A stretch of 64,000 bases of DNA. Source: Camillea tinctor (taxonomy: Eukaryota > Ascomycota > Sordariomycetes > Xylariales > Xylariaceae). Below the pieces are notes generated by a model. It saw only the letters and a list, made by a program, of their open reading frames with translations, had not been told where the DNA came from and did not search any database. The stretch is from contig MU394094.1 of NCBI GenBank assembly GCA_022578605.1, forward strand, positions 281,601-345,600. The letters are read 5' to 3'. The translations under genes and the position numbers were made by a program. This document shows, piece after piece, positions 46,303-52,479 of the stretch (within the stretch, counting starts at the first letter, position 1; the number at the start of each line of letters is the position of its first letter).

Positions 46303-48162
46303 ATGCCATCTTCTCGCCGCTGGTGTTGTTGTAAAACACCAAGGGTCCTCGTCGCCATGGGCGCAGTGGCTCTCCTACTGCTGCTTCTTTTTTCCCAACT
46401 CGTCACGATGCTGAAGTGGTCGTGGACGCTGGGTCCCGTCGCGAGCTTCGCCGCTCTTTCGTCGGCCGCGCAGACCGCAGACGGAGACGTAGATGTGGAC
46501 TTATCCTGGTATCCGCCGCGCAATACGTCTATCAACGACCTGGCCGCGGTGCTGGACGACAGCAATGGCATCTACGGTTTCGTGTTCAATTCGTCTGACA
46601 CACCACCGGGAGTGGCGTATGGGACGTATAATTGGTGCAATATGCCGCACGTGCGCAAGACTGAGTATGTGAGGCCATCGGCGGAGTACGAACTGCAGTA
46701 CGTCGAGGTGGTGAGTTTGCGACATCCTTTTGCTTCATTGAATTCTTTCGTGAAAAACAACTATGATGCATATACATCTAGTTCTCTATTACTCTTTCTC
46801 TCTGTCTCCATGTATATGCTAGGTAGGGACCTAATTGGTAGATATATATCCGCTAACCTCCATAACCCCCTCTAGATCCAGAGACACCATAAACGCACCC
46901 CTTACGCCAGCAACGCCTTCCCCGTGGAGCCGTACCGCTGGGACTGCCCCGACCAGGGGCTCTTCTACTACGGTCAGGCCATCTCTGGCCCCGACGCCTC
47001 GGAGCCAGCCGCTGAGGGCTACTGGCAGGGCTACACCTCGCCCGTGAACCCGTTCACGCCCTCGGGCTGGGTCGGGACTTGTCAGTTCCCACAGATCACA
47101 CTGAGCGGGCTGGACGACGTCCGCGTGCACGGGCGCGACCTGTATGAAGTGTACCACGACCTCCTCGGGTTCCTGCCCTCCCGCGATGACGACGAATGGC
47201 GCTCTCGCGTCGCCTACCGAGTGACCCAGAACGTGATCACGAGCCAAGTCGCCGGCATGCTCATCAACGGCATGTGGGGTGCCACCGCCGCCTCCGCACC
47301 AGCACCGCTACTCATCCAGGCCGCCGGGATCGACAGCCTCGAGCCGCAGTACACTTGCGCCGCGGGTAGCGTCCTCTTCAACGCCATCAAGTCGTCGTCC
47401 TCGAACGCCACGTGGCGCATGCATCTTGACCAGGCTGGCGACCTGTTCCGCCAGCTGGATGCGATCTCTGGCGTCGACCCCGACGATGGGGGTTTTCATG
47501 CGAGCTTCGACCACTACTACGATAACCTGTCTGCGCGCCAGTGCCACGACGCAAAGCCCCTGCCCTGCCGGCCTGGTACCGACGTCAACTCAAGCGCAGC
47601 GTGCGTCGACCAACATCTCGCCGACGCCGTCTACCGGATGGGTCAGTGGGAGTACTCGCAGATGTACCGGGACGCTCCGGACTCGCTCGCTGCATCGGCT
47701 GCATCATACGGGGTGTGGATTGCCGAGCTGGGTGCGCACCTGCGGGACCGCGCCGCCGGCAAGGCGGGCGATAATCCTATCATCTACTTCCATAACGTGG
47801 CGCATGACGGGTCGGTGAGCCGCGTGCTGAGCATCTTGCAGATAGATATTATGGTGTGGCCCGGCATGGGGAGCGAGATCGTGTTCGAGCTGTACCGTAA
47901 ACGAGCGGGTACCGAGCCAAACCGAGAGAGAGCGGACCGCGGCGCAACTACAAGCACGAGCACAGGCACGGGCACGGGCACGAGTGACGGTGGTTACTAT
48001 GTGCGTGTGCTATTCGGCGGCCAGGTATTGCGGTCTTCGCATCCGAGTTTGGGTGTTATGGACATGGTGCCTCTGGAAACACTGTTGGCTTATTTTGACG
48101 GGCTAGTTGGCGAGAATGCTAGCTTGATTGTCGGTAAATGCAATGGGACCATCCCTATCTAG
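46303..48162 (+). CDS. Histidine acid phosphatase-like (clade 2) membrane or secreted protein
   Basis: Two exons, 46303-46710 and 46876-48162, 564 aa. The splice joins YVEV to IQRHHKRTPYASN, which is the phosphohistidine loop of the histidine phosphatase superfamily, RHGxRxP in classical members and RHHKRTP here (139-145). The second catalytic motif HD is present as NVAHDGSV at about 445. A hydrophobic segment at residues 14-30 (LVAMGAVALLLLLLFSQLV) after a basic N-terminus suggests a signal anchor, and there are numerous N-x-S/T sites, so the protein probably faces the exterior or the secretory lumen. The substrate cannot be told; phytase-like, acid phosphatase or multiple inositol polyphosphate phosphatase activity are possible. 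A Thr/Ser/Gly repeat (about 500) interrupts the C-terminal part. The gene ends 13 bp from the end of convergent BET4. Confidence 0.85.
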
Positions 48163-48175
48163 ATTTCTTCATTAC

Positions 48176-49446
48176 TTATGTAGTCTCTCTACGTGACTTT
48201 AATTCCTTCTCCACGTCATCCCACCTGCCTGCTTGCATAGGGTCTAACTTTCGCAACTTGGCCAGCCAAGTCTGAAGCTCTTCGTTCTGTCTGTCGTCAT
48301 CACCGCCTGTGCTTTGGCTCGCCTGCCTCAGCTGTCCCAGAGCCAACGTGTATTCGAGCAGCGCCTCGTAAACCCATTTGATGTCGTCGTAATCTTCAAT
48401 CAGGTCCTTGATGTCTTCTATCTCTCTCTCTATGTACGATATTCGCTCTTCGACTGTTAGGTTCGGCACAATGGTCGATTCTTGGGAATGGTGGATGAGT
48501 TGCAGGATCAGATAGCGGTGATAATACCACAAGCTCTGGTCTTCGGGCCCGACGTTCAGTGCTTCGCGAATTTGGTCTAGCTCCGCCTCGATAAAGGCTG
48601 CTCTCGCCTTGTCGTCGGCACCGCGCTCGTCGAGCAGACGTCTGATCAGCCGGCTCCGGTTATGCCATGCAGAAAAGTTGGACAAGTCCACACGGATCAT
48701 CTTGGTGGTGTAGGTAAACTCGTCCTCGACCATGCTCTTCCCCCGCAACTCGGGAGTCTCCAGCCGGGCCACGAGATAGCGTCTGTACCCCCAGGCGTGG
48801 AAGTTGCGGCGGTCCTTGGTGAGCATCTTGGAGTCGAGCGCGAGCTCGCCCTCCCAAATGCTGGTGGCGGTGGCGGTGGGTAGGCGGAGAACGGCCTGCT
48901 CGAGGATCCATTGTCGGTATCCCCAAAGCCAGTAGCACTTGGGGAATTCCACGAGCAGGGGCACGGTGAATGCGAGCTCGGACCGTAGGATGTCGGCATC
49001 GGAATCAGCGTCAGCTGCAGTACTACTAGCGCTCTGCTCGGTCGTTGAGGTGCTCTGATCTTCGTGTGGTGTCGGCATCGTGTCCGGGGATGAGTTCGAA
49101 GTTGAAGATTTGGACAGTAAGCTAGAGATGAGACATCGGCGGCGGACGTTCCATATCGTGTGGTATTCTGGGTTTAGGCGGAGGAGCTTGGAGGTGAGTT
49201 GGAAGAGGGCGGTGTCGTAGGTGCCTGCGGACGCTTGACTACGTATCGAATCCTCGATCTGGCGGTATTTTTCGATCTTCTCGAGGTCTTGTTGGCGCTG
49301 CTCTTCGGTGCGAGCGGCACGGTTGTATTTGGCCACGCCGTGCTATTTACGATTTGATTTACTCGGTGAGTACATGAGGATCCTTGAGGATATAAGACAT
49401 CTTGGTATAAACATAAGGGAAATCCCTCGGTACTTACGCTAGCCAT
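48176..49446 (-). CDS. BET4: Rab geranylgeranyltransferase alpha subunit
   Basis: Minus strand, two exons: 49438-49446 (only ATG GCT AGC) and 48176-49342, 391 aa. The splice gives MASHGVAKYNRAARTEEQRQ, matching the family start MASHGV..RTxEQ. Five PFTA repeats are readable: NPEYHTIWNVRR, CYWLWGYRQWIL, NFHAWGYRRYLV, NFSAWHNRSRLI, and QSLWYYHRYLIL. An acidic/Ser-Thr-rich insert lies between the first two repeats. The protein pairs with Bet2 and the Rab escort protein to add geranylgeranyl to C-terminal cysteines of Rab GTPases such as Ypt1 and Sec4, so it is expected to be essential. It is divergent from AMA1 (889 bp) and convergent with the phosphatase-like gene. Confidence 0.93.
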
Positions 49447-50334: not shown

Positions 50335-52479
50335 ATGCCTATTATGTCCCCCGATCGATTTGTGCCTTTCTATGTCGCTGTACCAGATCGCTTCCGAGCC
50401 AATAAGCCGCCCCATAAACTATCGCCATCTGAACGCCTCTTGAGAAGCGACGAAGCCGGGTCCGATGCCTTCTGCTTCTCACCCAAGCCCGCTGTCCCCA
50501 TGGCCCCCCGGCGTGTATCCCGATCTGACGGTGTGGAACGCCGACTCGGTACCGTCCTCGACTTGAATTCCCTTGAGAGGCAGGTCAGCAACGGGGCTGT
50601 CTGGTCCGTCGGTGGTCTGGCACCTACTAGCGGCACCGCATCGGCCGTAGATGGTGGAGGAGGGCGACTTGTCAGTTCGGGGACCAATGCTCGCCTCTAC
50701 ACTACATCCTTCTCCAATTCTCGGCCCAGCTCGGAAGAGGAGCAGGAGAAACACGAAGGCCGACTTGCGTTAGCCTTGAAGATCGATCGGGTTCAGCGTG
50801 TGCTTGATTTTGATGGCTTCTCGACATTTCCACGATACACGAGAAAGGGGAGACCATCGCTCAAGACGAGCAAGACTATATGGACAGGGACAGAGTGGGA
50901 GAACGATACCCACGTCGCTAGTGAGATAATTCGCTTTTGTCGAGGTTATTGGCACTGAGGGACTGACATGTACATCTCAGGACCGCAAAAAGAGCCACGG
51001 GTTTTACCTAATGCTCCGTTCAAGTATGTGCAGGTAACATGCCAAAAAAGAAAAAGAAAAAGAAATAAAAAGAGAACAAAAAAAAAACAATAGCGCTGAC
51101 TCCACGTAATCTCCAGGGTTCTAGATGCCCCAGGTCTCCGGGATGACTTCTACTGCTCCATAATGGCTTACTCGAAGACTTGCAATACCCTAGCTGTCGG
51201 CCTTGGCAACCTTCTATATGGGTGGTCGGAGTCATCGGGCGTGACTCTTCTCAACAGCGGCACCAAGGATGGATCGTGGTTGACCTCGGTAGCCTTCTCA
51301 TCAAATCAGGGCTGCAAGTCTATCCTGGCTTTTGGACGGTCTGATGGTTCCTTGTCATTAATGTCCCTATTTGATAGTCTACTCCCCCGTTTCGAGGCGC
51401 AGCAGCCAGCACCTGTCGCTTGCCTCTCATGGCGCCCGACCGTTACGGTTCGGCCGTCATTGAATTTTCATAACTACGGGGTGTCAGTTAAGACCGAGGA
51501 CCTTCTCGTCGGCGACGAGATGGGAGATGTCTACTACTACTCGGTCGAGTGGCCCGAGCCCTAGGAAGTGGCTCGGGATAATTGGTCTGGGGCCATGACC
51601 TTGCTTGCACGTATTAAGGTCCATTCCCAGCAAATATGCGGTCTCGCGTGGTCGCCCAACGGGGAGCAATTTGCGACAGGAGGCAACGACAACATGTGTT
51701 GTCTCTTCAACGTAGACAGCATCATGAACACAGAATCCAGTATGGCCACGGCAGGGACGCTCGTCGCATGTTCTAACGCGGCAACGGAAACAAGCGCAAG
51801 CGCAGAAGAGCGCGGCTCGTCTTGCTGCTCGGCAAAGTCGTGCGAAGGCGCGCCGTCGGCATCGCTCGAAGACCAGCTTGATGATACGAGCGCTCACTCC
51901 TACGTGAGGCACCTACCGGCTGGCTCGGAGAGACACCGATGGCGCCATGCGGCTGCCGTCAAAGCTATTGCCTTCTGCCCGTGGCGGGAAGGGCTCATCG
52001 CGACGGGCGGGGGCTCGAACGATAAGTGCATCCACTTCTACCACACGACGTCGGGTGCCGCACTTGCGACCATCGCGGTGTCGGCGCAGGTGACATCGCT
52101 CATCTGGAGCACGACGCGGCGGGAGATCGCGGCAACGTTCAGGTACGCGCAGCCGGACCACCCCTACCGCATCGCCGTGTTCAGCTGGCCCGACTGCCGA
52201 CAAGTGGCCGCGGTGCCCTGGGAGGGGGAGCACCGGGCTCTCTACGCCATCGCGTACCCCGGGGGGCCCAGCGATACGTACCGCACCAAGGAGCGTCTCC
52301 GGAGCCGCACGGCAGAGGAAGGCTGCATCGTGGTGGCGGGTAGCGACGAGAGCGTCAAGTTCCACGAGGTGTGGATGGCAGGGCGAAAGGCGACGACGCT
52401 AGGGAGCGGGATACTCGCTGGCAGCGATATCCTGGAGATGGCGGAGGGTATTGATAAGGAGGGCGAGGTTATCCGCTGA
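50335..52479 (+). CDS. AMA1: Meiotic APC/C activator Ama1, WD40, with in-frame UAG
   Basis: Three exons: 50335-50920, 50981-51023, 51117-52479, 664 codons with one in-frame TAG at codon 359 (51562-51564). The start MPIMSPDRFVPFYV carries a C-box-like DRFVP motif used by Cdc20-family activators. Splices give HVARPQKEPRVLPNAPFKVLDA. The WD40 propeller starts near LRDDFYCSIMAYS, continues with LAVGLGNLLYGWSE, DGSWLTSVAFS, and, after the TAG, ARIKVHSQQICGLAWSPNGE, LFNVDS, VKAIAFCPWREGLIATGGGS and AQVTSLIWSTTRRE. The last two residues are Ile-Arg, the IR tail that docks on the APC/C. Ama1 drives protein destruction in meiosis and spore formation. The TAG stands where relatives have Trp in a WEVxRDxW segment. 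The frame beyond is intact for 304 codons, so I treat the gene as functional through A-to-I mRNA editing; a truncated allele is the alternative. Confidence 0.85.
51553..51577 (+). promoter_or_regulatory. RNA hairpin presenting the in-frame UAG in its loop
   Basis: CCCGAGCC (51553-51560) pairs perfectly with GGCTCGGG (51570-51577), leaving a 9-nt loop CTAGGAAGT that contains the TAG at loop positions 2-4. The adenine that would be edited is 51563, with U on its 5' side and G on its 3' side. Fungal A-to-I editing is known to favour UAG and hairpin loops. The structure is seen directly; the editing is inferred. Confidence 0.75.

Follow-up and report, generated by a model that had tools for sequence, protein, structure and literature searches.

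Restorative editing, in which a premature UAG in the mRNA is deaminated and read as UGG (Trp), is already known in Sordariomycetes, as is AMA1 as one of its targets in Fusarium. The AMA1 orthologue of F. graminearum, FGRRES_10728, belongs to a set of 69 PUK1-like genes in which UAG is edited to UGG (PMC4817773), and this change at an in-frame UAG is required for AMA1 to encode a full-length protein (PMC9499528, PMC11156358). The locus described here, in Camillea tinctor, is the orthologous gene and carries the same kind of stop. The two cases differ in that editing has been measured in F. graminearum, whereas we infer it in Camillea tinctor.

PUK1 and the PUK1-like genes of F. graminearum share with this locus an in-frame UAG in a sexual-stage gene, a U at position -1 and a preference for a loop; a turnover of the editing site between species has also been reported for PUK1 (PMC5381528). 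PUK1 is another gene, and its turnover is between two tandem stops, unlike the far-apart Trp codons considered here for AMA1. CHE1 of Fusarium and zao-1/zao-2 of Neurospora (the OLD-ZAO system) also contain a premature UAG that can be edited, its motif and preference for a loop being the same as here (PMC11169179, PMC12754623), and CHE1 gives rise to the same kinds of annotation artefact as AMA1 (PMC11169179). In contrast to AMA1, these genes are described as encoding transcription factors of the zinc-finger type, and their editing takes place in hyphae or follows virus infection; the zao genes are edited by OLD deaminases and are not described as meiotic activators. Restorative editing has been argued both to be adaptive, serving as a stage switch, and to be neutral baggage (PMC12754623, PMC5381528). 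The present analysis adds a site at codon 359 of AMA1, its spread over a clade and a likely turnover of sites, the last of which may be new.

Codon 359 is best read as a premature stop retained in a working AMA1 and undone by A-to-I editing in the sexual stage (probability about 0.88), and restorative editing at A51563 is strongly favoured by the comparisons below. Outside sex, translation would end after 358 codons. The resulting fragment, presumably inactive, would lack the C-terminal Ile-Arg and most of the WD40 propeller. As fruiting bodies develop, A51563 would be deaminated by the A-to-I system of the sexual stage, for which Fusarium uses the Tad2-Tad3 deaminase together with Ame1; the edited UAG would be read as UGG (Trp), and full-length AMA1 would be made.

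Gene Model of AMA1 and the In-Frame TAG

The window, a stretch of 64,000 nucleotides analysed as a whole, comes from a genome assembly of 44.69 Mb in 154 contigs. The AMA1 features are listed in Table 1.

Table 1. Positions of the AMA1 features in the window
Feature	Position	Strand	Basis or remark
AMA1 exon 1 (N-terminal region)	50335..50920	+	open frame, splice donor at 50921
AMA1 exon 2	50981..51023	+	frame-compatible; flanking introns with GT and AG ends
AMA1 exon 3: WD40 propeller and C-terminal Ile-Arg, split by TAG	51117..52479	+	PF24807 on both sides, names of homologues
Premature TAG, AMA1 codon 359, at a conserved Trp codon	51562..51564	+	
Adenosine predicted to be edited to inosine	51563..51563	+	motif C-U-[A]-G-G-A-A, 6/6 preferred positions; predicted
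Predicted RNA hairpin	51553..51577	+	stem 51553-51560 with 51570-51577 (8 bp), two inner pairs

The introns span 50921-50980 (60 nt) and 51024-51116 (93 nt), their junctions being placed by frame and splice signals, and splicing of exon 2 yields the joined sequence ...APFKVLDAP. The model comprises 664 codons including the final stop and contains exactly two stops, at codon 359 (TAG) and codon 664. The frame over three exons is therefore intact but for the one TAG, as the initial annotation had stated; its count of 304 stop-free codons after the TAG is exact, and the protein ends in EVIR, that is, in the IR dipeptide that it had named. A C-terminal IR binds APC/C. Within the 304 codons, 95 single-base changes could each create a stop and none of them has occurred.

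The CDC20/Fizzy WD40 profile (PF24807, Pfam) matches on both sides of the TAG (E 2e-17 before it and 2.3e-42 after it), each half of AMA1 scoring below the curated cut-off of 200 bits. Profile positions 1-107 lie before the TAG, and the best stretch after it covers positions 174-276. The TAG thus cuts one propeller in two. The gene is identified as AMA1 rather than Cdc20 or Cdh1 from the name that the sources give to many of its best homologues and from the other Cdc20-like matches in the Camillea tinctor genome, which are only ~40% identical. In other species, AMA1 is known to be expressed and to act only during meiosis or ascospore formation, and the Camillea tinctor gene may do likewise. 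Before AMA1, the closest long open frame to match Pfam (48179-49342, minus strand) is an intact gene whose product contains the alpha-subunit repeats of protein prenyltransferases (PF01239, E 1.7e-32).

A stop in a single assembly may also come from a sequencing or assembly error, or from an unrecognised intron ending in the TAG. Such introns do seem to occur in this genome: in three protein-kinase matches with one TAG, those looked at among several such kinase matches, the TAG lies near the start of the matched exon and looks like a splice acceptor, and they were discarded as editable stops. At AMA1, 29 in-frame GT-AG candidates span the TAG, but all of them lack both a CTRAY branch site and a donor from the consensus list. 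The residues that an intron would remove are conserved coding sequence, and the stop is common to other species (see below). An error or a missed intron is left with a negligible probability.

Identity of Codon 359 and Sharing of the Stop

The initial annotation placed the TAG at a conserved Trp codon, and two sets of relatives agree. Trp stands at this codon in 95 of 101 covering homologues (L in two, R in two, Y and F in one each), which come from the best 120 of 1065 homologues of the downstream half. A second search, queried with an Ilyonectria AMA1, added 90 proteins; 86 of these also have Trp here, and the remaining four show S, R, Y or a gap, once each.

The orthologous codon was also followed with the upstream half, using the 148 residues before the stop as a query that admits only proteins of about 81-259 residues. 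Among the 50 proteins found, 30 end exactly at codon 359, 10 read through it and 10 end elsewhere. The 30 stop-ending proteins terminate two residues past the conserved EWP, which corresponds to codon 359; these stops were located at the protein level. The gene calls of 29 of the 30 appear to take no introns and to end at real stop codons. No DNA of these relatives was found in viral_contigs (19 pattern matches) or in genome_contigs (54). In total, 170 proteins were compared: 151 have an upstream match (30 with the stop, 111 reading through and 10 other) and 19 have none. With 30 other protein clusters ending at codon 359, the stop is not an accident of one genome.

Named records tell a similar story. 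The Truncatella angustata record terminates at codon 358. Those of Xylaria bambusicola, Hypoxylon sp. FL1284, Parahypoxylon ruwenzoriense, Anthostomella pinea and Xylariaceae sp. FL0016 begin at a Met 11 codons after the stop. These six records behave as the artefacts of an edited stop do, which counts in favour of editing; truncated and next-Met gene models are listed among such artefacts in the CHE1 study (PMC11169179).

The five records annotated from that Met could also be taken at face value, the locus then making two functional polypeptides: the 358-codon fragment and a protein restarting 11 codons after the stop. The stop, however, splits one propeller domain, many Trp-bearing relatives make one protein, and the Met is not specific to the stop-bearing relatives. 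Since next-Met annotation is itself a documented artefact of edited stops (PMC11169179), two separate products are hardly credible here.

A premature stop is also the usual first sign of decay, and AMA1 might be a recent pseudogene in which the TAG is the first lesion in an unneeded gene, for example after loss of sex; sequence alone gives no proof that the downstream half is ever translated. The initial annotation had held that selection still acts on this half. The ratio of downstream to upstream divergence from the window protein is 0.55-0.71 in four stop-bearing pairs, whose upstream and downstream proteins come from contigs of equal length (64199, 2863, 78334 and 32734) and are on that basis read as two halves of one gene. 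In the 15 Trp-bearing proteins of the Xylariales clade, it is 0.50-0.91 (mean 0.69). The four pairs thus diverge like their Trp-bearing relatives, with no sign of relaxation, in agreement with selection on the downstream half. This normal conservation, the 30 clusters ending at the same codon and the 304 codons that follow with neither a stop nor a frameshift all speak against decay, and a pseudogene is scarcely probable.

Sequence Context and Predicted Hairpin

The editing preferences of F. graminearum are C/U at -2, U at -1, A/G at +1, G at +2 and A/G at +3 and +4 (PMC9600606). The bases from -2 to +4 around A51563 (C, U, G, G, A and A) agree with all six. The loop of the predicted hairpin, AGGA (51563-51566), begins with the candidate adenosine; in F. 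graminearum, about 62% of the editing sites are in loops.

A 61-nt segment, the size used in published editing studies, folds with -27.2 kcal/mol, and only 3 of 200 dinucleotide shuffles are as stable. When the neighbouring codons were redrawn synonymously, 5 of 2000 sequences folded as stably, whereas 880 of all 2000 put the adenosine into a hairpin loop of one kind or another. Having the adenosine in a loop is thus not remarkable by itself; the stability of the fold is. Of the 1903 other TAGs in the window, 545 lie in a hairpin loop, 41 have the full motif and 9 have both; two reach the same energy, and none combines it with the loop.

The stem has a probability of at least 0.84 at 14 of 17 fold lengths between 41 and 801 nt. 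At 91, 101 and 111 nt, another structure is favoured, in which the adenosine is paired and the stem probability is 0.06-0.11; this counts against editing. At 161 and 181 nt, the best single structure also pairs the adenosine, despite a stem probability of at least 0.84. With this reservation about the fold, the RNA around A51563 looks like an editing substrate in these predictions.

Distribution of the Stop

On a tree of 212 rows, AMA1 of Camillea tinctor groups with Xylaria, Rosellinia, Nemania, Microdochium and Truncatella, in a clade (support 97) that is taken to be the Xylariales in the wide sense. The tree was computed from 144 columns of the region before the stop; it is poorly resolved, and long branches meet. 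Rows with fewer than 95 of the 144 columns were dropped, so that 212 of 261 were kept, the stop-ending protein P0157 being among those removed. The Xylariales clade has the stop in 25 of its 40 rows and Trp in the other 15, a mixture that counts against editing. Five more stop-bearing rows are found outside it, two of them inside a clade with named Hypocreales.

The smallest clade that contains the 36 named Leotiomycetes comprises 93 rows, with no stop, one row that could not be scored and no named Sordariomycete. Six of its rows are fragments from the upstream-half search; five of them read through codon 359 and the sixth could not be scored. The absence of the stop from this clade is thus not simply a bias of the search. 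Sordariomycetes are described as commonly editing A to I in their mRNAs, and no such editing has so far been found in Leotiomycetes (PMC11087585, PMC11156358).

This distribution also bears on a bypass of the stop by other means: ribosomes might be programmed to read through it, or a suppressor tRNA might supply an amino acid. Either mechanism would explain how the downstream part, being constrained, comes to be made. A stop that is missing from the clade where editing is not known does not favour them, nor does the full editing motif at the TAG, and the Trp of most relatives fits a G-to-A change undone by A-to-I editing. Bypass without editing is accordingly given a very low probability.

The state of codon 359, stop or Trp, changes at least 13 times on the 212-row tree and at least 10 times on a tree of 53 rows, at least six of these within the Xylariales clade; both counts are approximate minima in which gain and loss are not separated. 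A single clade of stop-bearing rows is rejected on the 53-row tree (AU test run after the tree had been seen, p-AU 1.3e-139). Judging from these trees, the stop has been gained or lost many times. The initial annotation had suggested a conserved stage-specific switch in case the site proved to be shared. It is shared by many relatives, but its distribution is patchy and does not form one clade, and "conserved switch" is too simple a description.

Fusarium AMA1 and Probable Turnover of the Site

The initial annotation had mentioned Fusarium AMA1 in connection with editing. The gene is indeed a published editing target (FGRRES_10728), but in F. graminearum codon 359 is Trp (record P0202), and editing there probably occurs at another position. 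Annotation gaps interrupt this record and six others from Fusarium (P0192, P0199, P0201, P0207, P0209 and P0210), and codons 257-264 (window numbering) are all that these gaps have in common. The only conserved Trp within them is codon 264, which is TGG in the window. Because gene models are documented to contain false introns that skirt edited stops (PMC4817773), the shared gap over one conserved Trp points to a stop there, and the Fusarium stop lies probably at the Trp equivalent to codon 264, not 359.

Other records have gaps in other places. Xylaria cf. heliscus has Trp at codon 359 and a gap over codons 246 and 264, and in Fusarium sp. NRRL 66182, the gap covers codons 359 and 366. Gaps over further conserved Trp codons, within 246-266, 485-507 and 556-609 (window numbering), were seen in single Sordariomycete records, for example those of Xylaria cf. 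heliscus, Fusarium decemcellulare and Trichoderma gracile. They are possibly further editable stops, or plain annotation errors. A gap of six codons (573-578) is found in Lachnellula, a Leotiomycete, as well as in Parahypoxylon, and a gap at Trp 578 therefore says little about additional stops.

The conserved core of AMA1 is incomplete in 17 of 50 named Sordariomycete records and in 2 of 36 from Leotiomycetes (Fisher p 0.0015, records of the Ilyonectria-query search alone, uncorrected for kinship or annotation quality), a warning that AMA1 is misannotated near such codons in many Sordariomycetes. A wider comparison (28/61 vs 3/37, p 9.5e-5, also uncorrected for kinship or annotation quality) was set aside, as it mixed in searches whose length limits favour fragments.

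These records suggest that editable stops arise in AMA1 repeatedly, and not always at the same Trp. In the stronger form of this proposal, to which an even chance is given, AMA1 is a recurrent target: different Sordariomycete lineages would independently have placed a UAG at different conserved Trp codons and then lost it again. The stop would stand at codon 359 in many Xylariales and scattered others, at codon 264 in part of Fusarium, and perhaps at other codons elsewhere. No statement on site turnover in AMA1 was found in the literature searched, which did not include Qi et al. 2024 (PMC10776026) and Hao 2019. If AMA1 is such a target, selection would keep a gene-level off-switch rather than a particular editing site, and this would favour an adaptive over a neutral origin of restorative editing. 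A stop shared across much of a clade, with many gains or losses and apparently another Trp in Fusarium, amounts to a natural replicated experiment.

Candidate Editing Machinery and Other In-Frame Stops in the Genome

Matches to DUF726, the Ame1 family, occur at three places in the Camillea tinctor genome (L005, L006 and L007, on contigs C19, C8 and C2). According to Feng et al., Met-Val is essential for editing and Lys-Asn is ancestral in Ame1. The copy on C2 has Met-Val near that position, and the other two have Arg-Asn and Gln-Asp. The Met-Val is counted in favour of editing; its spacing to the active-site Ser, off by one compared with the published residues, is counted against. Deaminase-domain matches are also present, at the domain level and not tied to Tad2 or Tad3.

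In F. graminearum, the orthologues of SPO22 and DCP1 undergo editing (PMC4817773). In this genome, the matched regions of both genes are free of in-frame stops, which likewise counts against editing. Two further stops were rejected as editable. In the DUF726 match on C8, the frame changes across the TAG, as at an intron. In a DNA methylase on C25, the first piece ends at a likely intron, judged by eye (a scripted intron search gave no candidates).

Six stops in the window, five TAG and one TAA, have at least 100 open codons on both sides. At a threshold of 150, two are left, the AMA1 TAG and a TAG at 46873-46875 on the plus strand, with 191 open codons before it and 428 after it in the same frame. 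Neither side of the latter has a Pfam match, and by eye it is more likely part of an intron.

None of five other DNA-methylase matches (PF00145) in the genome shows an in-frame stop. A DNMT5-like DNA methylase contains a second in-frame TAG (L024:1975-1977, contig C32, about 179636-179638). Read through the TAG, its frame matches 7r76_A (listed as Rad8, and which we take to be Cryptococcus Dnmt5) with E 5.5e-69 and no gap there. The TAG aligns with a Trp of 7r76_A and agrees with 6/6 motif positions, and a hairpin loop is predicted at its adenosine, though the fold is weak (-12.9). It is a candidate for another restorative-editing site, and a second TAG at a Trp with the motif adds to the case for editing in this genome.
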